Assembly (NCBI GenBank): GCA_934045905.1 | Contig: OW203763.1 | Location: forward strand, 45,967,941-46,031,940 | DNA from: Leuctra nigra | Taxonomy: Eukaryota > Arthropoda > Insecta > Plecoptera > Leuctridae | Direction of reading: 5' to 3' | DNA length: 64,000 nt | Shown here: positions 2,906 to 52,700 of the stretch, in pieces | How the letters are laid out: every line of letters starts with the position of its first letter | Position numbering within the stretch: position 1 is the stretch's first letter | The notes under the pieces: generated by a model | What the model was told of the DNA's origin: nothing | Databases searched by the model: none | Seen by the model: only the letters and a program-made list of their open reading frames with translations | Position numbers and translations under genes: made by a program

Positions 2906-3035
2906 TGAAACCTTTGTTTTTTTCATGAGAATAACCAAATTGTAAAGGGTAATTTTTTTTAAAGGATTTAGTAATTGTTCATGTGATATGTGTCACACGT
3001 AAGTTGTAAGAATAAACTAAAAAAAGTAGTGATAT

Positions 3036-3434
3036 CCCCATAAAAAACACTCCGTGTAAAAATACCAGCCAAGTCTCTTCAACTTAAAAAAAATAATGAA
3101 ATCTAAAAATTCTGCACTGAAAAGTAGTGATATCAAAAAATTAGCCAAGTCAAAACTTTATTTGAAAATCAAAAAATACTTGGCGCATCGTTTTTTTAGG
3201 GCATTATAGGTATACTATGTATATGTATATTTCATGTATAATTTATAATTGGCTTATACTTCCAAGCTATTTATGTACACGATGCGCCAAGTATTTTTTG
3301 ATTTTCAAATAAAGTTTTGACTTGGCTAATTTTTTGATATCACTACTTTTCAGTGCAGAATTTTTAGATTTCATTATTTTTTTTAAGTTGAAGAGACTTG
3401 GCTGGTATTTTTACACGGAGTGTTTTTTATGGGG
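3036..3434. mobile_element. Near-perfect foldback element (long palindrome)
   Basis: Left arm 3,036-3,191 (from CCCCATAAAAAACACTCCG to CTTGGCGCATCG) is repeated almost without mismatch as inverted right arm 3,280-3,434, around an 88-bp spacer. About 155-bp arms, no coding capacity: a snapback MITE. The high arm identity indicates a recent insertion or gene conversion between arms. Confidence 0.85.
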
Positions 3435-5095: not shown

Positions 5096-5374
5096 ATATT
5101 GATAAATTTTCCACTTCCGGTTTGAAATTTTTGTTTTTTCTTGAAGTGGAGTGTCTAGCAATACATTGTCTTTAATGTTGCCAAATTTCAAAACTGTCGA
5201 TGGACCCGTTTGACTTTTGAAAAAAATTAAAATTTAAAATTGGATAAATTCACTTCCGGTCAAAATATTTCAGATTTTCTTTCAGAAGTACGCGTGAGAA
5301 GGGGGACTCTATGTGTCTACCAAATTTCAACTCTCTAGACCAAACCGTGCAATCTGTAGAAAAGGGCAAGCAAA

Positions 5375-5408
5375 ACGACGTGCCTAGCCAGCCAGCCAGC
5401 CAGCCAAC
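5375..5408. repeat. Short GCCA microsatellite in a repeat-derived stretch
   Basis: AGCCAGCCAGCCAGCCAGCCA lies in a stretch (5,100-5,470) that contains two CACTTCCGG words resembling those of the 270-bp family. No coding signal. Confidence 0.6.
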
Positions 5409-5848
5409 ATGAAAGTCAATCCTTGCATGTTTGAGGCCCAAAATTCACCCCGAAGGGATGAACGCAGCACTTTGATATTTGGTTAGGTGTTGTCAGGTGG
5501 CTAAATATACCCGATAACCATGATTTTCAACTTTCATTTCTCACTGCATGTATGCCTGTCGACACCTCGTTTCGACCACTTAAGCCGTTGCGGTATAAGT
5601 CTCTGGTAGTAGCTCGCACGTTGTATTAGAGCGGTGCTTGGCAGCGTCGAGCTAACGCCCGACTAGATTACCATTCTCAATCTCAAGTTATAGCGTACTC
5701 ACTCATATACAATATGCGGAATATAATGTACTCATTTTAACAACAGGCATCGGTGTATATCAGTTGTAAATTGTAATCATGTTCATTTTATTTCACAATG
5801 CAAGGAATTTACTGAATACGTCAAATTATTTTGAATAAGAAATATAAT

Positions 5849-6356
5849 CAGTGTCGTAGCGTAACTTCAGATTTCGGCGAACCCCACCACCTGATATTTT
5901 TCAGGACCCCCATCTTTTTAGTATCCTATACCTACCGTAAACAATCTGTTATAATGTGTGTATCCTTTTGTGTCAATTTTGAATTCGCATGACACATTTT
6001 CAATGGTGTAGGTATAATAGAAGAAGGTAAAATAATATAGCATCAGAACCGAATTGAGTCTGGAGGAGGGTCTCGAAACATTACGCGGGTCTGCACCGTG
6101 GAGGCCCTGAAAGTAACTTGAATTTCCCCATAGAATTAAGTACATTTGAACGCGATTCCAATAACATGGTTATGATCAATTTGATAACTTAAATTCTTTT
6201 AATTGCTACTAAGAATGTTTATTAGCTACTATAGCTTATCAATATGATTTACTTTTGTGGTATTCATTCAATTCAAATTTTAGGCCTCTCCGCCCCCCCC
6301 CCAGACATGGGACCCCCGCAATGGCGGGGGGTGCAACGTCGAAGTTACGCCAGTGA
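5849..6356. mobile_element. MITE-like element with CACTGGCGTAACTTC ends
   Basis: Left CAGTGTCGTAGCGTAACTTC and right GAAGTTACGCCAGTG are imperfect inverted repeats about 500 bp apart. A related half-copy (CACTGGCGTAACTTTGATA) occurs near 13,972. No ORF of interest. Confidence 0.55.
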
Positions 6357-6486
6357 ATATACAAATTATTAAATAAACTGGTATACGAGTTCTGTATAGA
6401 TATAAATCAAAAATCTCACTCAACAAATTTCCATGGAAGAGAGTAAATGGTAATTCTATTACCGGGGGTGTATAGTAAGATGTTAC

Positions 6487-6717
6487 CTGGATGAGTACAG
6501 TCTCGTTGTTGTAGATTAACTCTAGATTGTGTTCTGGCAAGAACATCTTCACAGCCCCGTCAACACTGGGATACATCTTGATCAGCAACGCTTCCGCCTG
6601 ATCCTTGAGGACCACCACATCGCTGTCGCTCATGGAGATGGCTTTCTTATTCACAGAGACATTAGACGCAGACATCAAGTTGACCACTTTGTAGTTGTCC
6701 ACGTTCACCTCCACTTC
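6487..6717 (-). CDS. Vg: Vitellogenin exon 20; acceptor end lies in a 71-bp array
   Basis: Residues about 1538-1614 (77 codons, phase 0). Encodes EVEVNVDNYKVVNLMSASN, then DGAVKMFLPEHNLELIYN, ending ETVLIQ|GTAACATC. The K.FLPE..LE..YN pattern is the middle of the vWFD domain; the expected GLCG follows in a later exon outside the window. Acceptor CATGTTCAG|GAAG is the last of about 28 tandem copies; the first 30 exonic nt are part of the repeat. Confidence 0.92.
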
Positions 6718-9700
6718 CTGAACATGAGGATACATTCACTTAGTACATGTGAGGATACTTTGTAGTTGTCCACGTTCACCTCCACTTCCTGAACATGAGG
6801 ATACATTGACTAAGTACATGTGAGGATACTTTGTAGTTGTCCACGTTCACCTCCACTTCCTGAACATGAGGATACATTCACTTAGTACATGTGAGGATAC
6901 TTTGTAGTTGTCCACGTTCACCTCCACTTCCTGAACATGAGTATACATTGACTAAGTACATGTGAGGATACTTTGTAGTTGTCCACGTTCACCTCCACTT
7001 CCTGAACATGAGGATACATTCACTTAGTACATGTGAGGATACTTTGTAGTTGTCCACGTTCACCTCCACTTCCTGAACATGAGGATACATTGAGTTAGTA
7101 CATGTGAGGATACTTTGTAGTTGTCCACGTTCACCTCCACTTCCTGAACATGAGGATACATTCACTTAGTACATGTGAGGATACTTTGTAGTTGTCCACG
7201 TTCACCTCCACTTCCTGAACATGAGGATACATTCACTTAGTACATGTGAGGATACTTTGTAGTTGTCCACGTTCACCTCCACTTCCTGAACATGAGGATA
7301 CATTGTGTTAGTACATGTGAGGATACTTTGTAGTTGTCCACGTTCACCTCCACTTCCTGAACATGAGTATACATTGAGTCAGTACATGTGAGGATACTTT
7401 GTAGTTGTCCACGTTCACCTCCACTTCCTGAACATGAGGATACATTCACTTAGTACATGTGAGGATACTTTGTAGTTGTCCACGTTCACCTCCACTTCCT
7501 GAACATGAGGATACATTGAGTTAGTACATGTGAGGATACTTTGTAGTTGTCCACGTTCACCTCCACTTCCTGAACATGAGGATACATTGACTAAGTACAT
7601 GTGAGGATACTTTGTAGTTGTCCACGTTCACCTCCACTTCCTGAACATGAGGATACATTGAGTTAGTTAATGTGAGGATACTTTGTAGTTGTCCACGTTC
7701 ACCTCCACTTCCTGAACATGAGGATACATTGAGTTAGTACATGTGAGGATACTTTGTAGTTGTCCACGTTCACCTCCACTTCTTGAACATGAGGATTTAT
7801 TGAGTTAGTACATGTTAGGATACTTTGTAGTTGTCCACGTTCACCTCCACTTCCTGAACATGAGGATACATTGAGTTAGTACATGTGAGGATACTTTGTA
7901 GTTGTCCACGTTCACCTCCACTTCCTGAACATGAGGATACATTGAGTTAGTACATGTGAGGATACTTTGTAGTTGTCCACGTTCACCTCCACTTCTTGAA
8001 CATGAGGATTTATTGAGTTAGTACATGTTAGGATACTTTGTAGTTGTCCACGTTCACCTCCTCTTCCTGAACATGAGGATACATTGAGTTAGTACATGTG
8101 AGGATACTTTGTAGTTGTCCACGTTCATCTCCACTTCCTGAACATGAGGATACATTGAGTTAGTACATGTGAGGATACTTTGTAGTTGTCCACGTTCACC
8201 TCCACTTCTTGAACATGAGGATTTATTGAGTTAGTACATGTTAGGATACTTTGTAGTTGTCCACGTTCACCTCCACTTCCTGAACATGAGGATACATTGA
8301 GTTAGTACATGTGAGGATACTTTGTAGTTGTCCACGTTCACCTCCACTTCCTGAACATGAGGATACATTGACTTAGTACATGTGAGGATACTTTGTAGTT
8401 GTCCACGTTTACCTCCACTTCCTGAACATGAGGATACATTGACTAAGTACATGTGAGGATACTTTGTAGTTGTCCACGTTCACCTCCACTTCCTGAACAT
8501 GAGGATACATTCACTTAGTACATGTGAGGATACTTTGTAGTTGTCCACGTTCACCTCCACTTCCTGAACATGAGGATACATTGAGTTAGTACATGTGAGG
8601 ATACTTTGTAGTTGTCCACGTTTACCTCCACTTCCTGAACATGAGGATACATTGACTTAGTACATGTGAGGATACTTGGTAGTTGTCCACGTTCACCTCC
8701 ACTTCCTGATTGTTTTGTTACACACGGCTGCATTGTTATAAGTAATGAACTATCTCTCAAACTGTGGTTAGGGCTTGATAGATATCACAATTGGTGGCAC
8801 GGGTTGGTACTGTATTCACTGATATCAGCGATTTCATGATTTTAAATAATACTCTATCACAATGCCCAATACAATGAAAAGTTATCAGTTAATTGCGGAT
8901 TAGGTGTTAGCATATTGCGTTGTTTTATTATTGTAATTAAGAGAAAAGAAGTCATGTCGGTTTGCCGCCATAGGATTCCGATTTAGAAAAACTACACACT
9001 TTTGTATCCATGTCGTGTATTTAAAAGTAGTTCAACACATATTCATATTTTTTATATAAGGTCCTTGGTTAAAATAAGGCCCGGTGGGAACAAGGTCCAC
9101 TCTTACTATCTCAGAGGTTTAATATCGGTCGCACAATTTATCATTCCTGGATTGTTAAATGCCACTAGTGTGGTGTATTAGCAAAGTTTTGACTTTAATA
9201 TAACGTCCAATGATGCATTTTCTACACCTCTCTTCTTATTGAAAAGCAATGAGTACTTTCCTCTTGTCATTGAAACACAGTAATACGTTTGTATCCTATT
9301 TATATATATTAACTAATAAGTTTTCTTTAATATCAATACGTTTAAGGTGGTATCAGGGTAAAATACGTAGTCAGAGACCTCTCTTTAATTATTCCATAGA
9401 CTAAATAGGCAGTTATTTAGTCTATGATGATACCCAACGGCTGGTGTATTGAGGCTGCATATTATACCGTTTGTATCCAAACGCCCAGATTTCCTATCCT
9501 TTTATCATTGTGACGTTATCACCTGGGCGTGACCTTGAGTCCAATCTCGTCGAAGAAGTGGAATATCATACATGATCTTAAGAAGTGCAGATAATGTGAG
9601 AGGATCTGTTGAGAGAGATCTTACCAAGTGATGGTCATTTCTTCTGGCCAGCACCACGAAGCGACTCTTGCCAGACACGTCCTTGGTCAACACATGCCAG

Positions 9701-10722
9701 CAGTTGCTGATGTTGTATTTCAAGAGGACCTCATCGTACGTCACCACTTGGTTCAGCGACACTCCGCAATAACCTCAAACATAACCATACAAGTTACACT
9801 CAGGTCGTATTTGAAACATTTCAAAAGAAATAAGACTTCTGGGCCTCAATAATCGGTAGTTACCTAATCTGCCCACCAACCTAGCCAGCATGAAATCTGT
9901 TTCTAGTAAGGTTGCCAGGAAACCCGTGTCGGATTCTCCGGGATTGTTTGGGATTCTCTTCCTTGGCCCGGAATTTGCAAGTATCATTCCTGGACAGCAA
10001 TAGTCCAGAAAATCTGAATCTAGTACTTTCAAACTAAATGTTCAAAATAACTACCAATAGGCAATATATATTATTTACCTATATGTTATCAAAATAGCTT
10101 AAATTTTAAGTAAAAAGTTAAAATAATTGTCTCTAATTAATTCTTGAAATTCAACATATCAACATTCCGTCTTCTGTCCCGGATTACACACTTTGAAAGT
10201 AAATCGATGCCCCAGAATTACAAGGTTCTATCTGCCACCAATGGTTCTGTGATATGAAGGATTGAAAATTTACGAGAACTCGTATGAGTAAATTTAAGTC
10301 TTGAAACACACACATTCTGATCAATTAAATATGTATATTATTCTGCTGATAGAATCAGTAGGATGTAAATAACATAAAATATATATAATAACACAATTAA
10401 AATATTTGAATATCTGTATGGAACTTTGTTATACACTGAACTTCTCTCCATGTTACAGAATCACAAGGTTCTATCTGCTTTAGCATTGTACTTCCATAAG
10501 AAATGAGCATGGAAATTATCATTTTTAAGTACCTTTATAAAAAAAAGTATAAAGTACACAGTTTTAAAGCTCAAAGTTTCAAAGTATGAAGTTACAAAAG
10601 TATAAAAATCTGTGAATCTTTTCCCCAGAAAATAGGAATGCATTCCTAGGTAGGAATGCTAGGTAGGTAGGGGTTCACCCTACTCCTACTGTCAGCAAAT
10701 GCACAGTGTGTGTTTGAAATAA

Positions 10723-10765
<43 letters not shown>

Positions 10766-13700
10766 GTAAATATCAATTTTTATATACAATAAATACCATC
10801 AGGCAAATAAAATATGTTTTTAAAAATATTATTGTTTTTGCAAATAATGCAAATTGCAAACGAATTTCTTGAAATTTTGTGCTCCAAATGCCACAAGACT
10901 TAGGTACGTTCCCTTGACCTTTATGTCATACTGGAAGTTTAAGGTTAGGGTTATGTATCAACTGCTGGGTATTTTTACAAGCACTTACGATTGGTTATTT
11001 ATAAAGGGTCCCATCATTAGAACGTTCATCTTCTTCATCGGATAAATGAGGCTGATACTCACTGTCAGCCTCAGAGTCCGAAAAATCATTTTTGTCTCAC
11101 AAACTACGAGCGTAGGAGCCATCAAAAATGCGCCCATCTGATTGTTTATTTACCAAGGTACTGAAGATGACAACACGTGCGTGTACGCATAGAACACCAT
11201 CATAGAAACTTCATATTTGTTATTGTAGTTACTATTTGTATTTGTATTTGTTTATTTGTAACCTTTGACTCTCTTCCGAGGAAATTGGTACATTCATGTT
11301 ATATATTCTATATATATGACACTCTTATTGAGCGAGAGTAGCGAGCGTCTCCACTTGAAACTTACGGCTCGAATCTCTGTTTTTTTTTGTTTTTTTTTTG
11401 TCTGTGTGTGCATCTGGCGTTTCCTGCCGAACGAAGTACGAAACTAAAATACGAAATGTCCTTGGTCTTTTAAGCTAGAAAACCCAACAGAAGTGATATA
11501 TATTTCTGAGAAAAATACAGATAAAACCTTGTAATTCCGAAATCATCAGCTCAAGCTTAGATAGAACTATGTAATTTGTTTAATTGTTAAATATTTAGCC
11601 ACAATAGAGCGTTTCTAGTAGCATTAAACAATTATATATGCAATGAAAACCCCAAAAATTTCAATTTTGTCAGATAGAACCTTGTAATTCTAGGGCAACA
11701 AAATGAAGACTTGGGGAACGAAAATTATCTGCTGATTCCAGCGATACCAATAATGCAATAACTTAAAATAAATCACTTAGGTCACATAGGTCACATATAG
11801 CACTTAGGGCACTTAGAGCACTTTAGGGCACTGCTCTGCAACTAAGCCAAAGCGACCAACGTGGTTTTGATTCAAGGCATAAGAACGGGTAAGGATGGAC
11901 GGTGCGAAGGAGCATGTGCATGGTTTTTAGCAGGAAACCTTCCCAACATTTACCTCTCGACTGAGAGAAACCCCACATAATCCTCAGTCAGGAAGGACGG
12001 CCTTGGAATCGACCCAGGGACTTCCGGAGTTATAGAACTGACCGACCCAAACATTTCAGATGGAAGCAATAGTTCATTCTTTGTTTCAATGCGGGATAAT
12101 GGTTTGGGGTAATTCTTTAAATGTTCACAACTATTTAAAACAGAAATAATTGGTGCAATAAGGTTGAAACTTCCCAATGCATGAAGATCATAATGCATGT
12201 CAGTGTGTATCAAGTGTTCATTTCCTCCTCCACAACTCTGTGACAGAAAAACCAAATGCTCCAAGAAACAGGTCCAACTCATTTTCAAAGTGTCTATAAA
12301 ATAAGTGTATAAATACACTAGTTTAGTATAAATAGTAAATAAGTGTAGGTATTAAGTTATTAACAATAGTGGTGACACTCAAATGTTATGTTTCTTAGGT
12401 TAGCATTATTTATAAGTATTTTTGCAAGAAACACATCTTCTATTCATTCTGGACAATTATTTTCATGATGCAATATAATTTTTTTGTATTGTGACATTTT
12501 GTCCCAACCTGTTTTAAAAAGTACAATTGTAATTCTACACATTACACACTGACACACCTACACATTTTCAATGTATTCAATAAGGAAATAAAAAAATACT
12601 ATCAAACTATTCTATAGTGTCTCGGGTGATAAATTGTTGGGGATGCTCAATTAGTCCTGGTTTACTAACAGCTAGCTCACTTTTAGTTCGAATTCAAAAT
12701 ATATTATACCACGGTGGATTATACTAATATCTACACTGGTACAACTAAAAATGACCGCTCAATAAATCTGATTGACTGAAAAATGTTAGATCGCACCATC
12801 AGAAGTCCGTCTAAGCGATCTCCTTGTCTCACTCTAGTAGGTGACCTCTCATTTCAATGAATGATAATAACAAGCAGCAGTCATTCAAATTTGTTCACCG
12901 ATCATTTTTTATTTGACCAAGTGTACCTGTTGATAACGGATCATCAATCACAAACTATAAACAACAACATAAGCTATAAGACTGCATTATAGTGATTCTA
13001 TTCTTGACTCAAGTTTCCGAGCTGCCCTCATTCGAGAGTCAAACTGAAAGTTTCACTTTTCATCCTTATTTTTCCTTACATCATGGCCATAGGCTAGGTG
13101 CAGAACAGTGATCCGTTAAATAGGCAGTATCTATTTAAAGTTTTGAGTATCCATGGTCTGCTTGTGAGATGATGGATGAATAAGGGTGCATATTAGTTGG
13201 GATTTGAAACAATGGCTCATCCCTCATCTATCCCGTGACATTGATTGCATCAGGAGGATCTTGAAGGGAATAATAATTGACTGGAAGAAGAGATGTAATG
13301 TAACGAGGTGGATTGCATTGAGCAGTTTATTGCTCCGCAGTTAAACGTCAGGCATTATGTCCCTGGAATATAAACATTTAATCACTTCATAAATTAAGAT
13401 CATAATGTACATTTAATAAAAGGTTCAATAAAAGTAAAGATAAAATGTACGGTTGTATTATATTTCAGTGATAAATTTCAACTGTGCTTACAAGTGTATA
13501 AGCGCTTGATATTTCAATATGAATTTGTCAAGAATACATTTGATTTGATTCGAATAGGAACATCTTCATTCCACTTTATGATGCAGATGCAAATGTCTCT
13601 CCAACTCCGAGTGATATGTTATTATAATATAGTATTTAACGTCGCACGGTTATACAACTTGGCTAATGACGATTGAATGAAAGGTAATAATGATTATGAA

Positions 13701-16700
13701 TGATTTTATAGAAGACATGAAGGTAAGATTGAACGGTGGAAAGGAGGTGGTCGTGGCCTCTTAATGGGGAACATTAGAGCATTTGCAGATTGCCTCTCGA
13801 CTGAGGAATAACAAACAAAACCCCGTACACCGGCGTTCAGCACCAGAGAGTTGTTTGTCAAAAGGGCCCATCAAACACGTCAATAGGAGGTCAGTCGTGG
13901 CCTATACGTGGATGAGATTTGACTACTACGATCGGCCTTCAGCGCATACCTAGCGGTCAGCTCAAGAACCACTGGCGTAACTTTGATATTGCACTTAGAT
14001 GTTTTGGGGGGAGACGGGTGGGGGGGGGGAGTCAAAATTTTGTATCGAATGAATACCATAAAAAGCAAAACCATATGATGAAAATAAAAACATTATTGGA
14101 TAAAACAAAAATTTAAAAATTATTTTGACTTATTTGCTATTTGGTACTGATTAACCTTAGACGACTTATCATCAGTTTGACACTGGGAGAATTTCGTCCA
14201 AAAACATGAGAAAATAAAATCACAGCATTTTCAAAATTAAAATTGGAGTATTTTAAAGATATTTACTTAAAGAAATCTACCAAAATGTGTGTTTCAATCG
14301 AGTTAAAAAGCAGTAAAGTAAAGTCAAGTAAATTCAATAGTAAAGTCAAACATTATTCCGGGCCTACCATGAGACCCGACGCACATATTGCTCTGACAAG
14401 TGTGTTCTCGGGACTATTGAGCCCTCTGACATGTGTGTTCTCGGGACTATTGAGCCCTCTGACAAGTGTGTTCTCGGAACTATTGAGCCCTCTGACAAGT
14501 GTGTTCTCGGGACTATTGAGCCCTCTGACAAGTGTGTTCTCGGGACTGATAAGCCCTCTGACAAGTGTGTTCTCGGGACTATTGAGCCCTCTGACAAGTG
14601 TGTTCTCGGGACTATTGAGCCCTCTGACAAGTGTGTTCTCGGGACTATTAAGCCCTCTGACAAGTGTGTTTTCGGGACTATTGAGCCCTCTGACAAGTGT
14701 GTTCACGGGACTGATGAGACCTCTGACAAGTGTGTTCACGGGACTGATGAGCCCTCTGACAAGTGTGTTCTCGGGACTGATGAGCCCTCTGACAAGTGTG
14801 TTCTCGGGACTGGATCGCAACAAGCGAGCAGCAAGTGGTGTGTTAAAGTATTGTATTCACCTGGACTGATGAGCCCTCTGACAAGTGTGTTCTCGGGACT
14901 GGATCGCAACAAGCGAGCAGCAAGTGGTGTGTTAAAGTATTGTATTCACCTGGACTGATGAGCCCTCTGACAAGTGTGTTCTCGGGACTGGATCGCAACA
15001 AGCGAGCAGCAAGTGGTGTGTTAAAGTATTGTATTCACCTGGACTGATGAGCCCTCTGACAAGTGTGTTCTCGGGACTGGATCGCAACAAGCGAGCAGCA
15101 AGTGGTGTGTTAAAGTATTGTATTCACCTGGACTGATGAGCCCTCTGACAAGTGTGTTCTCGGGACTGGATCGCAACAAGCGAGCAGCAAGTGGTGTGTT
15201 AAAGTATTGTATTCACCTGGACTGATGAGCCCTCTGACAAGTGTGTTCTCGGGACTGTATCGCAACAAGCGAGCAGCAAGTGGTGTGTTAAAGTATTGTA
15301 TTCACCTGGACTGATGAGCCCTCTGACAAGTGTGTTCTCGGGACTGGATCGCAACAAGCGAGCAGCAAGTGGTGTGTTAAAGTATTGTATTCACCTGGAC
15401 TGATGAGCCCTCTGACAAGTGTGTTCACGGGACTGATGAGCCCTCTGACAAGTGTGTTCACGGGACTGATGAGCCCTCTGACAAGTGTGTTCTCGGGACT
15501 GATGAGCCCTCTGACAAGTGTGTTCTCGGGACTGGATCGCAACAAGCGAGCAGCAAGTGGTGTGTTAAAGTATTGTATTCACCTGGACTGATGAGCCCTC
15601 TGACAAGTGTGTTCTCGAGACTGGATCGCAACAAGCGAGCAGCAAGTGGTGTGTTAAAGTATTGTATTCACCTGGACTGATGAGCCCTCTGACAAGTGTG
15701 TTCTCGGGACTGATGAGCCCTCTGACAAGTGTGTTCTCGGGACTGGATCGCAACAAGCGAGCAGCAAGTGGTGTGTTAAAGTATTGTATTCACCTGGACT
15801 GATGAGCCCTCTGACAAGTGTGTTCTCGGGACTGGATCGCAACAAGCGAGCAGCAAGTGGTGTGTTAAAGTATTGTATTCACCTGGACTGATGAGCCCTC
15901 TGACAAGTGTGTTCTCGGGACTGGATCGCAACAAGCGAGCAGCAAGTGGTGTGTTAAAGTATTGTATTCACCTGGACTGATGAGCCCTCTGACAAGTGTG
16001 TTCTCGGGACTGTATCGCAACAAGCGAGCAGCAAGTGGTGTGTTAAAGTATTGTTATCACCTGGACTGATGAGCCCTCTGACAAGTGTGTTCTCGGGACT
16101 GGATCGCAACAAGCGAGCAACAAGTGGTGTGTTAAAGTATTGTATTCACCTGGACTGATGAGCCCTCTGACAAGTGTGTTCTCGGGACTGTATCGCAACA
16201 AGCGAGCAGCAAGTGGTGTGTTAAAGTATTGTATTCACCTGGACTGATGAGCCCTCTGACAAGTGTGTTCTCGGGACTGTATCGCAACAAGCGAGCAACA
16301 AGTGGTGTGTTAAAGTATTGTATTCACCTGGACTGATGAGCCCTCTGACAAGTGTGTTCTCGGGACTGTATCGCAACAAGCGAGCAGCAAGTGGTGTGTT
16401 AAAGTATTGTATTCACCTGGACTGATGAGCCCTCTGACAAGTGTGTTCTCGGGACTGGATCGCGACAAGCGAGCAGCAAGTGGTGTGTTAAAGTATTGTA
16501 TTCACCTGGACTGATGAGCCCTCTGACAAGTGTGTTCTCGGGACTGGATCGCTACAAGCGAGCAGCAAGTGGTGTGTTAAAGTATTGTATTCACCTGGAC
16601 TGATGAGCCCTCTGACAAGTGTGTTCTCGGGACTGGATCGCAACAAGCGAGCAACAAGTGGTGTGTTAAAGTATTGTATTCACCTGGACTGATGAGCCCT

Positions 16701-19700
16701 CTGACAAGTGTGTTCTCGGGACTGGATCGCAACAAGCGAGCAGCAAGTGGTGTGTTAAAGTATTGTATTCACCTGGACTGATGAGCCCTCTGACAAGTGT
16801 GTTCTCGGGACTGGATCGCAACAAGCGAGCAGCAAGTGGTTTGTTAAAGTATTGTATTCACCTGGACTGATGAGCCCTCTGACAAGTGTGTTCTCGGGAC
16901 TGGATCGCAACAAGCGAGCAGCAAGTGGTGTGTTAAAGTATTGTATTCACCTGGACTGATGAGCCCTCTGACAAGTGTGTTCTCGGGACTGGATCGCAAC
17001 AAGCGAGCAACAAGTGGTGTGTTAAAGTATTGTATTCACCTTGACTGATGAGCCCTCTGACAAGTGTGTTCTCGGGACTGGATCGCAACAAGCGAGCAGC
17101 AAGTGGTGTGTTAAAGTATTGTATTCACCTGGACTGATGAGCCCTCTGACAAGTGTGTTCTCGGGACTGGATCGCAACAAGCGAGCAACAAGTGGTGTGT
17201 TAAAGTATTGTATTCACCTGGACTGATGAGCCCTCTGACAAGTGTGTTCTCGGGACTGGATCGCTACAAGCGAGCAGCAAGTGGTGTGTTAAAGTATTGT
17301 ATTCACCTGGACTGATGAGCCCTCTGACAAGTGTGTTCTCGGGACTGGATCGCAACAAGCGAGCAGCAAGTGGTGTGTTAAAGTATTGTAATCACCTGGA
17401 CTGATGAGCCCTCTGACAAGTGTGTTCACGGGACTGATGAGCCCTCTGACAAGTGTGTTCTCGGGACTGATGAGCCCTCTGACAAGTGTGTTCTCGGGAC
17501 TGGATCGCAACAAGCGAGCAGCAAGTGGTGTGTTAAAGTATTGTATTCACCTGGACTGATGAGCCCTCTGACAAGTGTGTTCTCGGGACTGGATCGCAAC
17601 AAGCGAGCAGCAAGTGGTGTGTTAAAGTATTGTATTCACCTGGACTGATGAGCCCTCTGACAAGTGTGTTCTCGGGACTGGATCGCAACAAGCGAGCAGC
17701 AAGTGGTGTGTTAAAGTATTGTATTCACCTGGACCGATGAGCCCTCTGACAAGTGTGTTCTCGGGACTGGATCGCAACAAGCGAGCAGCAAGTGGTGTGT
17801 TAAAGTATTGTTATCACCTGGACTGATGAGCCCTCTGACAAGTGTGTTCTCGGGACTGGATCGCAACAAGCGAGCAACAAGTGGTGTGTTAAAGTATTGT
17901 ATTCACCTGGACTGATGAGCCCTCTGACAAGTGTGTTCTCAGGACTGGATCGCAACAAGCGAGCAACAAGTGGTGTGTTAAAGTATTGTATTCACCTGGA
18001 CTGATGAGCCCTCTGACAAGTGTGTTCTCGGGACTGGATCGCAACAAGCGAGCAGCAAGTGGTGTGTTAAAGTATTGTATTCACCTGGACTGATGAGCCC
18101 TCTGACAAGTGTGTTCTCGGGACTGGATCGCAACAAGCGAGCAGCAAGTGGTGTGTTAAAGTATTGTATTCACCTGGACTGATGAGCCCTCTGACAAGTG
18201 TGTTCTCGGGACTGGATCGCAACAAGCGAGCAACAAGTGGTGTGTTAAAGTATTGTAATCACCTGGACTGATGAGCCCTCTGACAAGTGTGTTCTCGGGA
18301 CTGGATCGCAACAAGCGAGCAGCAAGTGGTGTGTTAAAGTATTGTATTCACCTGGACTGATGAGCCCTCTGACAAGTGTGTTCTCGGGACTGGATCGCAA
18401 CAAGCGAGCAGCAAGTGGTGTGTTAAAGTATTGTATTCACCTGGACTGATGAGCCCTCTGACAAGTGTGTTCTCGGGACTGGATCGCAACAAGCGAGCAG
18501 CAAGTGGTGTGTTTAAGTATTGTATTCACCTGGACTGATGAGCCCTCTGACAAGTGTGTTCTCGGGACTGTATCGCAACAAGCGAGCAGCAAGTGGTGTG
18601 TTAAAGTATTGTATTCACCTGGACTGATGAGCCCTCTGACAAGTGTGTTCTCGGGACTGGATCGCAACAAGCGAGCAGCAAGTGGTGTGTTAAAGTATTG
18701 TAATCACCTGGACTGATGAGCCCTCTGACAAGTGTGTTCTCGGGACTGGATCGCAACAAGCGAGCAGCAAGTGGTGTGTTAAAGTATTGTATTCACCTGG
18801 ACTGATGAGCCCTCTGACAAGTGTGTTCTCGGGACTGGATCGCAACAAGCGAGCAACAAGTGGTGTGTTAAAGTATTGTAATCACCTGGACTGATGAGCC
18901 CTCTGACAAGTGTGTTCTCGGGACTGGATCGCAACAAGCGAGCAGCAAGTGGTGTGTTAAAGTATTGTATTCACCTGGACTGATGAGCCCTCTGACAAGT
19001 GTGTTCTCGGGACTGGATCGCAACAAGCGAGCAGCAAGTGGTGTGTTAAAGTATTGTATTCACCTGGACTGATGAGCCCTCTGACAAGTGTGTTCTCGGG
19101 ACTGGATCGCAACAAGCGAGCAGCAAGTGGTGTGTTAAAGTATTGTATTCACCTGGACTGATGAGCCCTCTGACAAGTGTGTTCTCGGGACTGGATCGCA
19201 ACAAGCGAGCAGCAAGTGGTGTGTTAAAGTATTGTATTCACCTGGACTGATGAGCCCTCTGACAAGTGTGTTCTCGGGACTGGATCGCAACAAGCGAGCA
19301 GCAAGTGGTGTGTTAAAGTATTGTATTCACCTGGACTGATGAGCCCTCTGACAAGTGTGTTCTCGGGACTGGATCGCAACAAGCGAGCAGCAAGTGGTGT
19401 GTTAAAGTATTGTATTCACCTGGACTGATGAGCCCTCTGACAAGTGTGTTCTCGGGACTGGATCGCAACAAGCGAGCAACAAGTGGTGTGTTAAAGTATT
19501 GTATTCACCTGGACTGATGAGCCCTCTGACAAGTGTGTTCTCGGGACTGTATCGCAACAAGCGAGCAGCAAGTGGTGTGTTAAAGTATTGTATTCACCTG
19601 GACTGATGAGCCCTCTGACAAGTGTGTTCTCGGGACTGGATCGCAACAAGCGAGCAGCAAGTGGTGTGTTAAAGTATTGTATTCACCTGGACTGATGAGC

Positions 19701-40700: not shown

Positions 40701-43700
40701 TTGCCAGGTTGATTCTTCACGGCTGTCATGACTTGAGGCGGGCTTGTGCTCTTTCACAGCTGAAGGCGTCACTCGGATGGCTGTTCTCGGCGACTTCTTC
40801 GAATCCTTATTTGGCTTTTCCCTTTTTGGTCGTTTGTGTGACCTGTGCTTTTGAGTGGATTCTGATGATGATGAAACGGGTGCCGGATCACAAGGCTCCT
40901 CGGTGGTATGTTTGTCAGATGACTGCTTGTTGCCCTTCTATTAAATAAAATCTCAATTATTTCCTTTTTATTAATTTTTTCTAATAGTCCAGTTTGGAAA
41001 TTTGAAAGAAGCAAACAAGTTTCTCCGCAAAATTAGGCAAATACCTATAGTATTTCATATTTTATCTCCTCGCTTGAGACAAACTAAGCGATCAAAATGT
41101 TTAGGGTAGAAATTAAAATAACCTAATACATATTGCTCAAAATTTTGAAACGTGTCGATTTAAACGATGATTCTTATAATATATTATCTTGGTTACTATT
41201 TCACAATTCTTTGAACCCATCGTTAACCCAACGCTCCAATAATATTCGGCAAAATCAGCCTATGCGCTGCTGTTTCGCAATAACGCATAGGCCAAGCAAC
41301 GAAGGCTAAAAACAGGCCGAACCCGGGACAAATTGCAAGATTTGTCTTTTTCATCAGACCTTATTCAGAAAAATTCGCTGATTACAACAAAAAAAGTTTT
41401 ACGCAGAGATGTGAAGGGAAATTGCCCAAAATTACGTGTAAAGTTCAAATTTTGAGAACATAAAATATTTTTTTTTAAGAATCACAGAACACATTTTGAT
41501 ATTTGTTTTCAATAAAAAGTATGTATTATATTAGGATACAATACTCGAAAAAAAATTGGGTGATAATATTAATTATTTTGGATTTATTCAATGATTTAAT
41601 AAAATGACGTCATTTAAATAATTAGTCGTAGTGACGTAACTAAAGGAGCTAGAATAAATGTTTTTACGGGAAAATGTTGGTAATAAAGCCTTATATTTTT
41701 GGTATGAATATGATCAAAAGTTCACCACGCATCTACTCATTGTTGTCAAACAAAATTTTAATCAAATTATATAAAAAATTAAACATCAATATAACGCAAT
41801 TATTGGCATAACGGCGGAACTGTTTGATCAGAAAATGTTGTCCCTTATAGAATTTTGGTGCCTGATAAAACCTAGCCCAGAGAGAGATTTGGGACGCCAT
41901 TTTGAAACCGGAAGTGGCATCATCTTGAAAACGGCTGAACCGATTATAACGGAACTGGTGGCAATTGACTCCAACGGTCATATGACAAAACAGATCAATA
42001 GTAAAACCAGAAATTACCAATACAAATACCGGAAATGACGTCACAAGTATTCAAAATTCTTCTAAAACCCCCTGTTCAACAATAAATACATTATTCTGGC
42101 TTGTTATAATGTAATATATGAATTTATTAAAAAAAAGTCTATGTGGCATTGTTTTCAGTCGCCATTTTGAGCTCGGAAACGTTTTTTTATAAAATCTTTA
42201 TTCACACATGTACATGGATTTACAATCACAGTTGATATACAAACAGCAAAGTGAATAATAGGAATACTTAGAAACTAATAAAGAAATCAGGGTCTTTAAC
42301 TTCCTGACAAAAGGAAACGTATTGGAATGAAATCAAATACCAATTAATTAAGTGGATACCACTCTGTGTCTGGAATTAGAAAAGGTTTTAAGCCTTATGC
42401 CGGCATAATTTTATGTCGGTACAGCATTATAACTAGGTACCAATATTTTTATTACCAACTTATTATTTTATCATTATAAATAGCGACTTTTACAATTTAA
42501 TTCATAAAGATATGCATTTAGGTATTTATTTAATGTACTTATTGTTAAGTAGGGGGTTTTAGAAGAATTTTGAATATTTGTGACGTCATTTCCGGTATTT
42601 GTTATTGGTAATTTCTGGTTTTACATTTGATCTGTTTTGTCATATGACCGTTGGAGTCGATTGCCACCAGTTCCGTTATAATCGGTTCAGCCGTTTTCAA
42701 GATGATGCCACTTCCGGTTTCAAAATGGCGTCCCAAATCTCTCTCTGGGCAAGGTTTTATCAGGCACCAAAATTCTATAAGGGACAACATTTCCCGATCA
42801 AACAGTTCCGCCGTTATGCCAATAATTGCGTTATATTGATGTTTAATTTTTTATATAATTTGATTAAAATTTTGTTTGACAACAATTAGTAGATGCGTGG
42901 TGAACTTTTGATCATATTCATACCAAAAATACTAGGCTTTATTACCAACATTTTCCCGTAAAAACATTTATTCTAGCTCCTTTAGTTACGTCACTACGAC
43001 TAATTATTAGAATGACGTCATTTTATTAAAATCATTAAATAAATCCAAAAATAATTAATATTATCACCCAATTTTTTTTCGAGTATTGTATCCTAATATA
43101 ATACATACTTTTTATTGAAAACAAATATCAAAATTTGTTCTGTATTCTTAAAAAAAATATTTTATGTTCTCAAAATTTGAACTTTACACGTAATTTTGGG
43201 CAATTTCCCTTCACATCTCTACGTAAAACTTTTTTTGTTGTAATTAGCGAATTTTTCTGAATAAGGTCTGATGAAAAAGACAAATCTTGCAATTTGTCCC
43301 GGGTTAAATGCTTCTTTGCTAGGCCTAGCAGGCGTTTGGCAGATTGGGCCGGTCGATGTGTTCACATCCATGTAATATCCAGAATCTTCTATAAGAACAG
43401 TCTTTGAGGACACGATTTGATTATACTAACAAAGTTTTGCCCATGCAGAGGGGGGCAACATCCACCATATGGATATTTCCGAATATTATTGGAGAGCTGG
43501 GTTCAACCATCGTGAAAAACATCCTTTCTGGACTGACTAAGAGAATTATAAGTGGAAGAGTTAGTTACTCTATCACAATGGGCAATTTCAACGGTATTTT
43601 TCATTGAAAGCAAAGTAATGCCTAAAGTTACTTAACTTTCGATACAGCTATTACCTATATAATACGATATAACAATATTAACATTATCATGTGTTTTATA

Positions 43701-46700
43701 AGTGACCTGTGTCTTGAGCTTGTAGACGAGGCTGCTGAGACGTTGCGGCTGTTTGGGGACGCTGAAGGGCCGCGAAACAGTCTGTGTCGACATCAGAGTC
43801 AGGTTCACGAACGAGTTGACAGAAGCCGTGCTGGAGTTGTGCAGATGTAAGTTAGCGAACAGTCGGGAACTTGTCACTGATGCCAGTAGCATGAAGTCCT
43901 TGCGATCTCCACATCCTTGAGCCCGAGTGACAGATGAGCGCTGCAAGAGAAACAAGACTTTCAGGTGTCACGTCCTCGTCAAGATCCCACATCCTTGAGC
44001 CCGAGTGACAGATGAGCGCTGCAAGAGAAACAAGACTTTCAGGTGTCACGTCCTCGTCAAGATCCCACATCCTTGAGCCCGAGTGACAGATGAGCGCTGC
44101 AAGAGAAACAAGACTTTCAGGTGTCACGTCCTCGTCAAGATCCCACATCCTTGAGCCCGAGTGACAGATGAGCGCTGCAAGAGAAACAAGACTTTCAGGT
44201 GTCACGTCCTCGTCAAGATCCCACATCCTTGAGCCCGAGTGACAAATGAGCCCTGCAAGAGAAACAAGACTTTTAGGTGTCACGTCCTCGTCAAGATCCC
44301 ACATCCTTGAGCCCGAGTGACAGATGAGCCCTGCAAGAGAAACAAGACTTTTAGGTGTCACGTCCTCGTCAAGATCCCACATCCTTGAGCCCGAGTGACA
44401 GATGAGCGCTGCAAGAGAAACAAGACTTTCAGGTGTCACGTCCTCGTCAAGATCCCTCATCCTTGAGCCCGAGTGACAGATGAGCGCTGCAAGAGAAACA
44501 AGACTTTCAGGTGTCACGTCCTCGTCAAGATCCCACATCCTTGAGCCCGAGTGACAGATGAGCGCTGCAAGAAAAACAAGACTTTCAGGTGTCACGTCCT
44601 CGTCAAGATCCCTCATCCTTGAGCCCGAGTGACAGATGAGCGCTGCAAGAGAAACAAGACTTTCAGGTGTCACGTCCTCGTCAAGATCCCACATCCTTGA
44701 GCCCGAGTGACAGATGAGCGCTGCAAGAAAAACAAGACTTTCAGGTGTCACGTCCTCGTCAAGATCCCTCATCCTTGAGCCCGAGTGACAGATGAGCGCT
44801 GCAAGAGAAACAAGACTTTCAGGTGTCACATCCTCGTCAAGATCCCACATCCTTGAGCCCTGAGCGCTGCAAGAGAAACAAGACTTTCAGGTGTCACGTC
44901 CTCGTCAAGATCCCTCATCCTTGAGCCCGAGTGACAGATGAGCGCTGCAAGAGAAACAAGACTTTCAGGTGTCACGTCCTCGTCAAGATCCCACATCCTT
45001 GAGCCCGAGTGACAGATGAGCCCTGCAAGAGAAACAAGACTTTCAGGTGTCACGTCCTCGTCAAGATCCCACATCCTTGAGCCCGAGTGACAGATGAGCC
45101 CTGCAAGAGAAACAAGACTTTCAGGTGTCACGTCCTCGTCAAGATCCCACATCCTTGAGCCCGAGTGACAGATGAGCGCTGCAAGAGAAACAAGACTTTC
45201 AGGTGTCACGTCCTCGTCAAGATCCCTCATCCTTGAGCCCGAGTGACAGATGAGCGCTGCAAGAGAAACAAGACTTTCAGGTGTCACGTCCTCGTCAAGA
45301 TCCCACATCCTTGAGCCCGAGTGACAGATGAGCGCTGCAAGAGAAACAAGACTTTTAGGTGTCACGTCCTCGTCAAGATCCCACATCCTTGAGCCCGAGT
45401 GACAGATGAGCGCTGCAAGAGAAACAAGACTTTCAGGTGTCACGTCCTCGTCAAGATCCCACATCCTTGAGCCCGAGTGACAGATGAGCGCTGCAAGAGA
45501 AACAAGACTTTCAGGTGTCACGTCCTCGTCAAGATCCCTCATCCTTGAGCCCGAGTGACAGATGAGCGCTGCAAGAGAAACAAGACTTTCAGGTGTCACG
45601 TCCTCGTCAAGATCCCACATCCTTGAGCCCGAGTGACAGATGAGCGCTGCAAGAGAAACAAGACTTTCAGGTGTCACGTCCTCGTCAAGATCCCACATCC
45701 TTGAGCCCGAGTGACAGATGAGCGCTGCAAGACAGACGAGCGCTGATCCTAAATATTTGTGTAGTTTTATATTATATTTGCTGATTTAATGAAAAGTGAG
45801 AAAATAAGACATGTATAGGGTACCTGCTATATGGTCTTAATAAATATATTTCAAACTTTAAAATCCATATTATAATGTATTTATAAACCCAATGGAGGCA
45901 TTGACTTAAGTCTATATGAATTTACTGGAAAATAAAGAAAAAGGCAGTCGGAGTCTCGCGATTGTCGTGCGACTCTGTGCGTCAAAGCAAAGAATAAGAA
46001 TCTTACTTTCTTTATTATATGGTCAAAGTAACTACAAAGGTAAGTTTATACCTTATGATGGTAGATGGCCTCAAATCGCTGTCAAATCGCAACTTGTCGC
46101 CTCCAGTAGTCCCCACACTTGCTAGATCTTACCCTCCAGTAGTCCTCACACTTGCTAGATCTTACCCTCCAGTAGTCCCCACACTTGCTAAATCTTACCC
46201 TCCAGTAGTCCCCACACTTGCTAGATCTTACCCTCCAGTAGTCCCCACACTTGCTAGATCTTACCCTCCAGTAGTCCCCACACCTGCTAGATCTTACCCT
46301 CCAGTAGTCCTCACACTTGCTAGATCTTATCCTCCAGTAGTCCCCACACTTGCTAGATCTTACCCTCCAGTAGTCCCCACACTTGCTAGATATTACCCTC
46401 CAGTAGTCCCCACACTTGCTAGATCTTACCCTCCAGTAGTCCCCACACTTGCTAGATATTACCCTCCAGTAGTCCCCACACTTGCTAGATCTTACCCTCC
46501 AGTAGTCCCCACACTTGCTAGATATTACCCTCCAGTAGTCCCCGCACTTGCTAGATCTTGCCCTCCAGTAGTCCCCACACTTGCTAGATCTTACCCTCCA
46601 GTAGTCCTCACACTTGCTAGATCTTACCCTCCAGTAGTCCCCACACTTGCTAAATCTTACCCTCCAGTAGTCCCCACACTTGCTAGATCTTGCCCTCCAG

Positions 46701-49700
46701 TAGTCCCCACACTTGCTAGATCTTTCCCTCCAGTAGTCCCCACACCTGCTAGATCTTACCCTCCAGTAGTCCTCACACTTGCTAGATCTTATCCTCCAGT
46801 AGTCCTCACACTTGCTAGATCTTACCCTCCAGTAGTCCCCACACTTGCTAGATCTTACCCTCCAGTAGTCCCCACACTTGCTAGATCTTACCCTCCATTA
46901 GTCCCCACACTTGCTAGATCTTACCCTCCAGTAGTCCCCACACTTGCTAGATCTTACCCTCCAGTAGTCCCACACTTGCTAGATCTTACCCTCCAGTAGT
47001 CCCCACACTTGCTAGATCTTACCCTCCAGTAGTCCCCACACTTGCTAGATCTTACCCTCCAGTAGTCCCCACACTTGCTAGATCTTACCCTCCAGTAGTC
47101 CTCACACTTGCTAGATCTTACCCTCCAGTAGTCGCCACACTTGCTAGATCTTACCCTCCAGTAGTCCCCACACTTGCTAGATCTTACCCTCCAGTAGTCC
47201 TTACACTTGCTAGATCTTACCCTCCAGTAGTCCCCACACTTGTTAGATCTTACCCTCCAGTAGTCCCCACTTTTGCTAGATCTTACCCTCCAGTAGTCCC
47301 CACACTTGCTAGATCTTACCCTTCAGTAGTCCCCACACTTGTTAGATCTTACCCTCCAGTAGTCCCCACTTTTGCTAGATCTTACCCTCCAGTAGTCCTC
47401 ACACTTGCTAGATCTTACCCTCCAGTAGTCCCCACACTTGTTCGATCTTACCCTCCAGTAGTCCCCACTTTTGCTAGATCTGTCCCTCCAGTAGTCCCCA
47501 CACTTGCTAGATCTTACCCTCCAGTAGTCCCCACGCTTGCTAGATCTTACCCTCCAGTAGTCCCCACACTTGCTTGATCTTACCCTCCAGTAGTCCCCAC
47601 ACTTGTTAGATCTTACCCTTCAGTAGTCGCCACACTTGCTAGATCTTACCCTTCAGTAGTCCCCACACTTGCTTGATCTTACCCTCCAGTAGTCCCCACA
47701 CTTGCTAGATCTTACCCTCCAGTAGTCGCCACACTTGCTAGATCTAACCCTTCAGTAGTCCCCACACTTGCTTGATCTTACCCTCCAGTAGTCCCCACAC
47801 TTGCTAAATCTTACCCTCCAGTAGTCCCCACACTTGCTAGATCTTACCCTCCAGTAGTCCCCACACTTGCTAGATCTTACCCTCCAGTAGTCCCCACACC
47901 TGCTAGATCTTACCCTCCAGTAGTCCTCACACTTGCTAGATCTTATCCTCCAGTAGTCCCCACACTTGCTAGATCTTACCCTCCAGTAGTCCCCACACTT
48001 GCTAGATATTACCCTCCAGTAGTCCCCACACTTGCTAGATCTTACCCTCCAGTAGTCCCCACACTTGCTAGATATTACCCTCCAGTAGTCCCCACACTTG
48101 CTAGATCTTACCCTCCAGTAGTCCCCACACTTGCTAGATATTACCCTCCAGTAGTCCCCGCACTTGCTAGATCTTGCCCTCCAGTAGTCCCCACACTTGC
48201 TAGATCTTACCCTCCAGTAGTCCTCACACTTGCTAGATCTTACCCTCCAGTAGTCCCCACACTTGCTAAATCTTACCCTCCAGTAGTCCCCACACTTGCT
48301 AGATCTTGCCCTCCAGTAGTCCCCACACTTGCTAGATCTTTCCCTCCAGTAGTCCCCACACCTGCTAGATCTTACCCTCCAGTAGTCCTCACACTTGCTA
48401 GATCTTATCCTCCAGTAGTCCTCACACTTGCTAGATCTTACCCTCCAGTAGTCCCCACACTTGCTAGATATTACCCTCCAGTAGTCCCCACACTTGCTAG
48501 ATCTTACCCTCCAGTAGTCCCCACACTTGCTAGATCTTACCCTCCAGTAGTCCCCACACTTGCTAGATCTTACCCTCCATTAGTCCCCACACTTGCTAGA
48601 TCTTACCCTCCAGTAGTCCCCACACTTGCTAGATCTTACCCTCCAGTAGTCCCACACTTGCTAGATCTTACCCTCCAGTAGTCCCCACACTTGCTAGATC
48701 TTACCCTCCAGTAGTCCCCACACTTGCTAGATCTTACCCTCCAGTAGTCCCCACACTTGCTAGATCTTACCCTCCAGTAGTCCTCACACTTGCTAGATCT
48801 TACCCTCCAGTAGTCGCCACACTTGCTAGATCTTACCCTCCAGTAGTCCCCACACTTGCTAGATCTTACCCTCCAGTAGTCCTTACACTTGCTAGATCTT
48901 ACCCTCCAGTAGTCCCCACACTTGTTAGATCTTACCCTCCAGTAGTCCCCACTTTTGCTAGATCTTACCCTCCAGTAGTCCCCACACTTGCTAGATCTTA
49001 CCCTTCAGTAGTCCCCACACTTGTTAGATCTTACCCTCCAGTAGTCCCCACTTTTGCTAGATCTTACCCTCCAGTAGTCCTCACACTTGCTAGATCTTAC
49101 CCTCCAGTAGTCCCCACACTTGTTCGATCTTACCCTCCAGTAGTCCCCACTTTTGCTAGATCTGTCCCTCCAGTAGTCCCCACACTTGCTAGATCTTACC
49201 CTCCAGTAGTCCCCACACTTGCTAGATCTTACCCTCCAGTAGTCCCCACACTTGCTAGATCTTACCCTCCAGTAGTCCCCACACTTGTTAGATCTTACCC
49301 TTCAGTAGTCGCCACACTTGCTAGATCTTACCCTTCAGTAGTCCCCACACTTGCTTGATCTTACCCTCCAGTAGTCCCCACACTTGCTAGATCTTACCCT
49401 CCAGTAGTCGCCACACTTGCTAGATCTAACCTTTCAGTAGTCCCCACACTTGTTAGATCTTACCCTCCAGTAGTCCCCACTTTTGCTAGATCTTACCCTC
49501 CAGTAGTCCTCACACTTGCTAGATCTTACCCTCCAGTAGTCCCCACACTTGTTAGATCTTACCCTCCAGTAGTCCCCACTTTTGCTAGATCTGTCCCTCC
49601 AGTAGTCCCCACACTTGCTAGATCTTACCCTCCAGTAGTCCCCACACTTGCTAGATCTTACCCTCCAGTAGTCCCCACACTTGCTAGATCTTACCCTCCA

Positions 49701-52700
49701 GTAGTCCCCACACTTGTTAGATCTTACCCTTCAGTAGTCGCCACACTTGCTAGAACTTACCCTCCAGTAGTCCCCACACTTGCTAGATCTTACCCTGCAG
49801 TAGTCCCCACACTTGCTAGATCTTACCCTCCAGTAGTCACCACACTTGCTAGATCTTTCCCTCCAGTAGTCCCCACACTTGCTAGATCTTACCCTCCAGT
49901 AGTCCCCACACTTGTTAGATCTTACCCTCCAGTAGTCCCCACACTTGCTAGATCTTACCCTCCAGTAGTCGCCACACTTGCTAGATCTTACCCTCCAGTA
50001 GTCCCCACACTTGCTAGATCTTACCCTCCAGTAGTCGCCACACTTGCTAGATCTTACCCTCCAGTAGTCGCCACACTTGCTAGATCTTACCCTCCAGTAG
50101 TCGCCACACTTGCTAGATCTTATTCTCCAGTAGTCGCCACACTTGCTAGATCTTACCCTCCAGTAGTCGCCACACTTGCTAGATCTTACCCTCCAGTAGT
50201 CGCCACACTTGTTACTCCCGGGCTCGCAGTTCTTGCTCGGCTGCCCGAAGTGGTACTCAGCCCTGGTCTCGCAGTTGTCGTAGTTCCTCGTCTTCGTCAC
50301 TTCCAAGTACGGTTTACTTCCGCACAACTCCGGCTTGGGCAAGACGTCGACGTTGTTCGCGCCCCACGTGTTGGCCAGCTCAGGAGTCAGCTTGACGACC
50401 TCGTAGAGGACCTCGCATCTGCCCACAACGGAGTCCTCCATCACCCGGAACACGGTCTCGTCCCGCTCTCTGCCGTGTTGGATGTTGGAGTTCTTGTCGT
50501 GGATGGCGTTGGTGCCTGTGAGGTCGATCTGGAGTTGACCGACTAAACCTTGCAAGAAGTTCACCTCCCAATCCTCGAGGTCACTGCCAACTGACAGATT
50601 CTCGATCTGTAAATCAAGAAGACCCGCGGCGTCAATTTCTGCTCTTTACAGAATTATTAATTGAGCGAACGAAGCCAGCGTCTTCTTTTCGCTCTTTTGG
50701 CATGGACCTCTTATTTTTGTTACTGACGATCAAGTCGATATACAGGTTGGGGATTTTGAAATCCGTTGATTGGTTCAAATTTAAAAATCTTCCGATTGGT
50801 TGGTCCAATCAATTTGAAATTTTGCCAGGTCATTAAGACCAACATTTTATCACATTTTACAATGTTTTAGTCAAATCCTCAGTTGGTTTAAATATGTAAA
50901 ATATCTTCCGATTGGTCGAAAATTAAAATGCTCCGATTAAGTTTAAATTTGAAATGGTGATCAAGACTAACATTATCTCTTATTTTACAAATTTTCAACT
51001 CAATCGGTCAGTCATTCACAGATGTGTTGCAATTTTAAGATTGTCGAAGTAGTTGTCAAATTAAAGAGATTTTTAGAAAAGTACCTATCTCTATCTATGT
51101 CACGACATGTATCCCAGATGAAAATAACCCATTGGTCCCATTTCTTCACATTATCCTAAGCGCTACCCAAGACCTACTTTTGAAAGACAAAGTAGTACAA
51201 TGGGCCTCATCGTACAAATTCCTAGAACTTCATCTTGATCGCGGCTTAAGATGGACAAATCACATTACGAGGTCCTATCTAGAGCGAACGGGAAACTAGC
51301 CTCATTATATCCACTATTCAAGTCAAGAAACCTCAAGCAAGAAACAAAGCTGCAACTTTATAAAACGATTTTGCTATACCTACCCTCTCATACGCAGCCC
51401 CCATCTGGGCTGGATGCGCCTCACAACACAGCATACACGACATACAAGTTCATCAAAATAAAATAATTCGAATTGTGTTGGACGCAACTATCTTCACCCG
51501 AATCGCAGACCTTCACGACCAGGCACACATGGAACCAATATCAGACCATTTTGCACGACTCGCCCAGCAGTTCTACGCGTCTCTGGAAAATGCACAGAAT
51601 CCGAAGATCCGAGTACTAGCAACACTCTCATCCACCACCCAAGACAGAGTCCAAAGACCATCCGCGACACTGACCATGCGACCTTCAGTTACCAGAAAGC
51701 GAAAGCTTTCAGGTGAAAGTTAAAAGTGAAGTGACATGTAACATTTGTACGCGATCCACTGGGGATCGCCCACCTGGAAAACTTTCCTGGACAAACTTCC
51801 TGGCAATTGATATAGCCGATAAGGCAACAACAATTAAGCGAGCCGCCAGACGGCAAATTCAACACGAGGTCACATTATCCTATACAAATACTAGGAACAC
51901 GCCTTGCGCTCCACCTCCATGATCAGTGTAACACGTTGATAAGCGAGCCTTCGTATTACATGCGGTGAATTAATATTATTAACAGACCTTGGAAAAGGCT
52001 GCAAGCAATGAAATTGTCAAAGGAGCAATGACAATTTCATTGACATTTTCTCTGAGTTCATTTGACAAATATTTCAAAACAAGCATAAATGTCAGCAAAA
52101 TGATAAATACTCTTGAAGTTCTAGCCCGATTTGTCTGAACATTTTCAAAACCACCTAAAAATGTTAGTACCAATGGGCATGCAAAATGTTAAGTTGATCG
52201 TCTAAACGGTTCCATTTTAAAGCTTCAATAAATCACAGGATCATATTCAAAAACTATACACGAGACAGCTCATATGACAATAATGTGAGTGCAAAATTTA
52301 AGATCGATCGGCTATGAACGGTGTGACCTTGGCAGTGAAGGCAAAAACACAAGCAGTGATTGAATGCGATTAATATCCGTATGAAAGTTGCTGCTCTCTG
52401 ATAAACCTTGGCAATAGATAAGAAGACTATAATATAATGATACCTATGTGTAAAGGGAGCTGTGATAATTTCTTGGAATATATTCGAATAAATTAGAAAA
52501 ATATTTAAAAACAAACATAAAATGCAGCAAAATGTTAATTATACTCTTAAAGTTCTTGAACAATGTGTCTGAACATTGACAAAAACACAGGAATGTTGGT
52601 CCCAATGATTATGCAAGATTTCTAGTTGATCGATCAAACCGCTCCAGGTTGAGTTTTCAACCAATCACAAGATCATGTCTAAAAGCTATGTGACAGGTCA

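Follow-up and report, generated by a model that had tools for sequence, protein, structure and literature searches.

Minisatellite-like tandem duplications that lie across an exon-intron boundary, known as mirages, have been described in amphioxus, where they occur at splice donors or acceptors of Adh3 and of globin genes (PMC3087553) and also in TnC and PGBD5 (PMC3902484). Many of the repeats carry AG or GT splice signals and normal splicing is reported to be undisturbed (PMC3087553, PMC3902484); the globin genes concerned include BflGb6 and BflGb9, and haplotypes of BflGb6 hold 3 or 6 units. The locus considered here lies in 64,000 nucleotides of the genome of the insect Leuctra nigra (contig OW203763.1, positions 45,967,941 to 46,031,940; hereafter the window), where a vitellogenin-like gene carries five large tandem arrays, each of which spans a splice junction. 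Turri et al. reported in 1995 a minisatellite that supplies several splice donors in the human gene IFI6 (G1P3); it shares with our arrays the repetition of a splice donor but is reported to concern one gene and donors only. A sequence-only reading of the window had known of no described class of such arrays and had presented them as a feature of a single gene. Neither claim survives, given the amphioxus and human precedents and the recurrence of such arrays at 11 further loci. The kind is mirage-like and already known, here larger, with several arrays per gene, in many genes and probably in another phylum. Our literature search, mostly of titles and abstracts, found no insect mirage and met mirages in amphioxus work only.

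Six arrays of at least 200 bp were detected in the window by Tandem Repeats Finder (TRF), five of them inside the vitellogenin-like gene. Exons E2 to E19 of this gene were set with GT/AG borders and a continuous phase, the uncertain E13 being left out; the map stops short of E1 (the signal peptide) and of the 3′ end of the gene. The minus-strand gene matches the Pfam family Vitellogenin_N (E=3.9e-116), and the honeybee Vg structure (9enr, E=8.7e-56), with lamprey 1lsh at only E=4e-4. A database search returned one relative, the vitellogenin-like protein P0001 of the damselfly Hetaerina americana, with which the joined exons share 436 of 1104 aligned residues over E2-E12 and 104 of 363 over E14-E19. 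A search with the window protein for other lipoprotein genes (tblastn) gave a sole match, a gene with canonical poly-serine tracts at C13:35.32 Mb, of which the window gene is a vitellogenin-like paralog. The features are as follows, with a slash marking the splice junction within each unit.

6487..54914, minus strand: vitellogenin-like gene, mapped part E2-E19 (exon map, Pfam, structure match and damselfly alignment)
50190..50606, minus strand: exon E4, donor at array A
46100..50211, minus strand: array A, 33 bp in about 126 copies at the E4 donor; unit AGCAAGTGTGGGGACTACTGGAGG / GTAAGATCT, 24 exonic and 9 intronic bases
43707..43940, minus strand: exon E5, acceptor at array B; the intron is common to arrays A and B
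43904..45732, minus strand: array B, 78 bp in about 24 copies at the E5 acceptor; unit ...TTTCTCTTGCAG / CGCTCATC..., 46 intronic and 32 exonic bases
21459..21623, minus strand: exon E16, acceptor at array C
21615..25887, minus strand: array C, 42 bp in about 100 copies at the E16 acceptor; unit ...TTGCTTCTAG / GGTACGATC, 33 intronic and 9 exonic bases
20488..20764, minus strand: exon E17, donor at array D
14391..20558, minus strand: array D, 89 bp in about 65 copies at the E17 donor; unit ...CATCAGTCCAG / GTGAATAC..., 64 exonic and 25 intronic bases
6487..6717, minus strand: exon E19, acceptor at array E; the opposite end of the intron (E18 donor) has no array
6686..8709, minus strand: array E, 71 bp in about 28 copies at the E19 acceptor; unit ...CCTCATGTTCAG / GAAGTGGAGG..., 40 intronic and 31 exonic bases

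The arrays of 33, 78, 42, 89 and 71 bp announced by the sequence-only reading were thus all recovered by TRF where it had put them, and its exons 5, 6, 17, 18 and 20 are the right exons, although numbered one higher than E4, E5, E16, E17 and E19 in our map. As it had also said, the repeat unit spans the exon/intron boundary in all five cases, includes exonic bases and repeats the splice site of the junction used in the gene model. Two arrays are at donors (A and D) and three at acceptors (B, C and E), with A and B at opposite ends of one intron, between E4 and E5. The distal end of array D is a 33-bp sub-array (14391-14811) that has no donor. Like mirages, the arrays cross boundaries at both the 5′ and the 3′ ends of introns, and many copies, though not all, keep their AG or GT, with array B keeping all. 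The differences are those of host and scale: an insect; in the window gene, some 24-126 copies and array lengths reaching 6 kb (and at another locus, L020, as many as 194 copies of a 34-bp unit), against the 3 or 6 units given for BflGb6 haplotypes; five junctions in one gene, and many genes; and paired arrays, at the two borders of a single intron (A and B) or of a single exon (L020).

The five unit sequences are mutually unrelated, and in a search with the array units that gave 251 matches, all of those listed fall in the vitellogenin-like locus. A single spreading repeat was therefore rejected, in agreement with the earlier claim that the units are independent. Megasatellites lie in coding sequence and have units that exceed about 100 bp; units of 33-89 bp in an intronic location fall outside that class.

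When a 50-bp window across each of the 34 mapped junctions was compared with its own flanks, the five array junctions scored 63-100 and the other 29 scored 14-23, against 672 intronic background windows whose median score is 18 and whose highest is 55. Between E2 and E19 the gene has five large arrays; each of them spans a junction, and none lies in an intron interior. We dropped the five seed lengths at random on the array-free introns and exon edges of the gene, in a test that is post hoc and treats the arrays as independent; the probabilities of spanning a junction were 0.026, 0.035, 0.065, 0.072 and 0.083, with a product of ~4e-7 for all five. With GC-matched windows (GC >=0.42) the five probabilities become 0.034, 0.049, 0.101, 0.11 and 0.132, and their product ~2e-6. 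Uniform seeding along the introns of the gene fails to explain the five arrays, with or without GC matching. GC-rich exon seeds were rejected as the cause, since matching for GC shifts the odds little.

The canonical paralog allows the introns to be dated relative to the arrays. It has array-free introns at the same positions and phases as E4-E5 (85 bp), E17-E18 (91 bp) and E18-E19 (89 bp), where the window gene has introns of 6249, 10714 and 2907 bp; a 30-kb region that includes the paralog contains no array of at least 200 bp, only a single one of 157 bp. The intron between E15 and E16, which carries array C and is 5215 bp long, has no counterpart in the open frame of the paralog. Since three introns are common to both genes and array-free in the paralog, three of the four array-bearing introns are older than their arrays. 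The published model of intron gain by tandem duplication shares with our arrays a duplicate that carries splice signals along (PMC4974935), but it would have the intron itself new and built from that duplicate. That the arrays created their introns would suit the E15-E16 intron and that model, but it is refuted for the other three, which are shared in position and phase, and as an explanation of the whole we regard it as highly improbable. High expression was also provisionally rejected as the cause, because the canonical paralog is free of such arrays.

Which copy of each array takes part in splicing can be judged from the alignment with P0001. With the exon-proximal copies joined, the alignment is gap-free at E4-E5, E15-E16, E17-E18 and E18-E19, although E17-E18 is poorly conserved and so weak for array D. 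If the next copy is spliced in silico instead, B, C and E run into a stop and D shifts frame and then stops; the reading frame of A stays open, with 11 residues gained per copy over as many as 13 further copies. We infer that the exon-proximal copy is the one used. None of the arrays qualifies as a coding repeat: A runs into a stop after at most 13 further units in frame, and in B, C, D and E the frames do not continue through the copies.

Of the donor arrays, A retains an intact GT in 109 of its 126 copies and D in 62 of 64; of the acceptor arrays, B retains AG in 24 of 24, C in 90 of 100 and E in 26 of 29. Set against mean unit identities of 0.966 (A), 0.984 (B), 0.904 (C), 0.984 (D) and 0.976 (E), retention of the dinucleotide is lower in A and E and higher in B and C. 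There is no consistent sign of selection on the repeated splice sites, the dinucleotides being not consistently better kept than the rest of the unit, and selection to preserve them, as suggested earlier, is not supported. It could still be argued that many donor or acceptor copies raise or regulate splicing efficiency and that selection keeps the arrays for this reason; the acceptor units do hold a polypyrimidine tract and AG, array E has in addition a TACTAA-like motif (by eye), and array B has kept its AG in every copy. On the other hand, GT in array A lies under the unit average, array E has lost AG in 3 of 29 copies, three of the same introns are array-free in the canonical paralog, and the next copy in B, C, D and E leads to a stop or frameshift. 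We consider maintenance by selection improbable.

Tandem arrays are prone to misassembly, and an artefact of assembly has to be weighed on that account. However, copies differ within each array: A has 33 distinct sequences among its 125 full copies, B has 9 among 23, C 53 among 99, D 21 among 64 and E 13 among 28. The pattern is moreover seen at 12 loci, with differing units. An artefact of this kind is barely credible.

It is likely, in our view, that the arrays are mirage-type splice-junction minisatellites, reflecting neutral intron growth at junctions on an unusual scale. The founding event would be a DNA-level duplication of a segment of 33-89 bp spanning the junction, followed, probably through slippage and unequal exchange, by growth to some 24-126 tandem copies inside the intron. 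Splicing would use just the exon-proximal copy, leaving the extra copies as tolerated intronic passengers. As these would be removed with the intron, duplications at the border could grow while those within the exon would be purged. The junction excess in the gene would need a bias in addition, either a duplication hot spot at these sites or preferential growth of units with complete splice signals.

The genome to which the window belongs comprises 536 Mb in 144 contigs, and in the 11 other loci we found 13 further junction arrays: five in three lipoprotein-family loci, six through a donor motif, one through the control motif and one in a myosin gene. Only the myosin array comes from a sample that was not picked by motif or family. 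For the first group, 20 stretches of ~10 kb, around other lipoprotein-family matches and the neighbours of the window, were run through TRF (arrays >=200 bp, period >=12), which gave 13 arrays, five of them at junctions. For the myosin sample, a Myosin_head search gave 93 exon matches, and 13 of these exons were taken by list position with flanks of 110-140 bp each. The arrays at junctions in these two surveys are listed here.

L019: acceptor array, 44 bp unit
L020 (C11:732000-741999), 2752-10000: acceptor array of 68 bp x9 and donor array of 34 bp x194, flanking one exon
L022: donor array, 60 bp unit
L026: donor array, 21 bp x156
L070/L069 (C2:19042076-19043074), myosin exon C2:19043016: acceptor array, 100 bp x9.7, over the first ~57 exonic bases

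The myosin array contains a nested 7-bp repeat. Large arrays with units of 14-110 bp are also present in L015-L018 and L027, away from recognised coding junctions.

Several points weigh against neutral growth from the junctions as we have set it out. Tolerance alone leaves the excess of arrays at junctions over the intron interior unexplained. The intron-side edge of the array lies at the splice junction or within 6 nt of it in four of the five arrays (in A it coincides with the end of the exonic segment, in B, C and E it is 4-6 nt from the AG, and in D it is inside the exonic part); this would not be expected if a segment had simply been duplicated at random, since such a segment could end anywhere. 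The identity of the spliced copy is deduced from sequence. Beyond the gene, 8 of the 13 arrays in the 20 stretches were not placed at a junction: seven were inspected and no coding junction was found at them (one each in L015, L016 and L018, two in L017 beside masked bases and two in L027), and one, in L026, was not inspected. Only one of the 13 sampled myosin exons has a junction array, the other 12 having nothing. Finally, a genome-wide search for the donor 8-mer AGGTAAGT occurring three times with gaps of 15-45 gave 152 matches, and the control, the same 8-mer reversed, gave 112.

Among the matches listed, up to contig C10, there are nine donor clusters and ten reversed-control clusters; the donor motif is no commoner in arrays than its control, and no genome-wide excess is shown. 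Eight of the nine donor clusters were read, and six (L041, L042, L043 with L058, L044, L045 and L047) start at the donor of an exon with an open coding frame, whereas L046 and L048 do not. This proportion by itself shows no preference, because real donors make up a good share of AGGTAAGT occurrences in any genome. Seven of the 11 listed control clusters were read: one is at a donor (L055/L056), one lies within a coding frame (L049), L057 is intronic some 100 bp before an exon, and four are non-coding or unplaced (L050-L054). The exons at the motif clusters are, we presume from their translations alone, FLVCR-, START-, decarboxylase- and gustatory-receptor-like. At the decarboxylase-like exon (L058, L043; C1:63.755 Mb) the first donor is GCAAGT, with GTAAGT in some later copies.

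The genome seems rich in minisatellites, and junctions may enjoy no preference at all, some arrays falling on them by chance in a genome filled with such repeats. The many arrays elsewhere, the parity of the donor 8-mer with its control, the single hit among the myosin exons and the one junction among seven inspected control clusters all suit this explanation. It has to be set against the junction position of each of the five large arrays from E2 to E19, with the small random-seed products given above, and against five of the seven arrays in lipoprotein-family gene stretches being at junctions, these stretches having been picked for that family. On balance we think chance placement unlikely. 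The amplification specific to junctions proposed by the sequence-only reading is supported within the gene but is not shown genome-wide by the motif test; its observation is confirmed and its interpretation, taken as a whole, is partly supported.

A more far-reaching proposal is that splice junctions are birthplaces of minisatellites throughout this genome, with a raised duplication rate and growth to hundreds of copies that would lengthen introns of ~90 bp to several kb. This would have arisen independently of the mirages in amphioxus, and the coincidence of the intron-side edge with the junction would then be a trace of the founding event. We put this forward only tentatively, as a possibility that we do not favour. 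If the junction bias did hold genome-wide, introns would have a route by which to grow from their ends, and intron length in such genomes would be in part a record of junction duplications. Mirages would be present in an animal lineage far from amphioxus. Rows of dozens of almost identical donors or acceptors would also provide a natural test of splice-site choice, in which use of the next copy would ruin the protein in four of the five arrays.

Two further repeats in the window were considered.

56970-57927: array F, 83 bp x 11.5, upstream of the mapped gene (TRF)
54592..54768, minus strand: GTAACAT x7 at the E2 donor, the first copy being the donor; perhaps a decayed repeat

Array F was rejected as a junction array, no coding flank being recognised; its plus-strand copies carry a polypyrimidine-AG and GTAAGG. 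At the E2 donor are found 7 of the 10 minus-strand occurrences of GTAACAT in the window, and TRF reports 31 bp x3 there (54584-54678). The junction score is at background, and it is doubtful that this repeat is an old, decayed junction array. An Rfam search of the window gave no matches. In the intron between E12 and E13, on the minus strand at 30190-33671 of the window, open frames resemble those of a non-LTR (long terminal repeat) retrotransposon, with endonuclease- and reverse-transcriptase-like segments, as judged by reading the frames alone.

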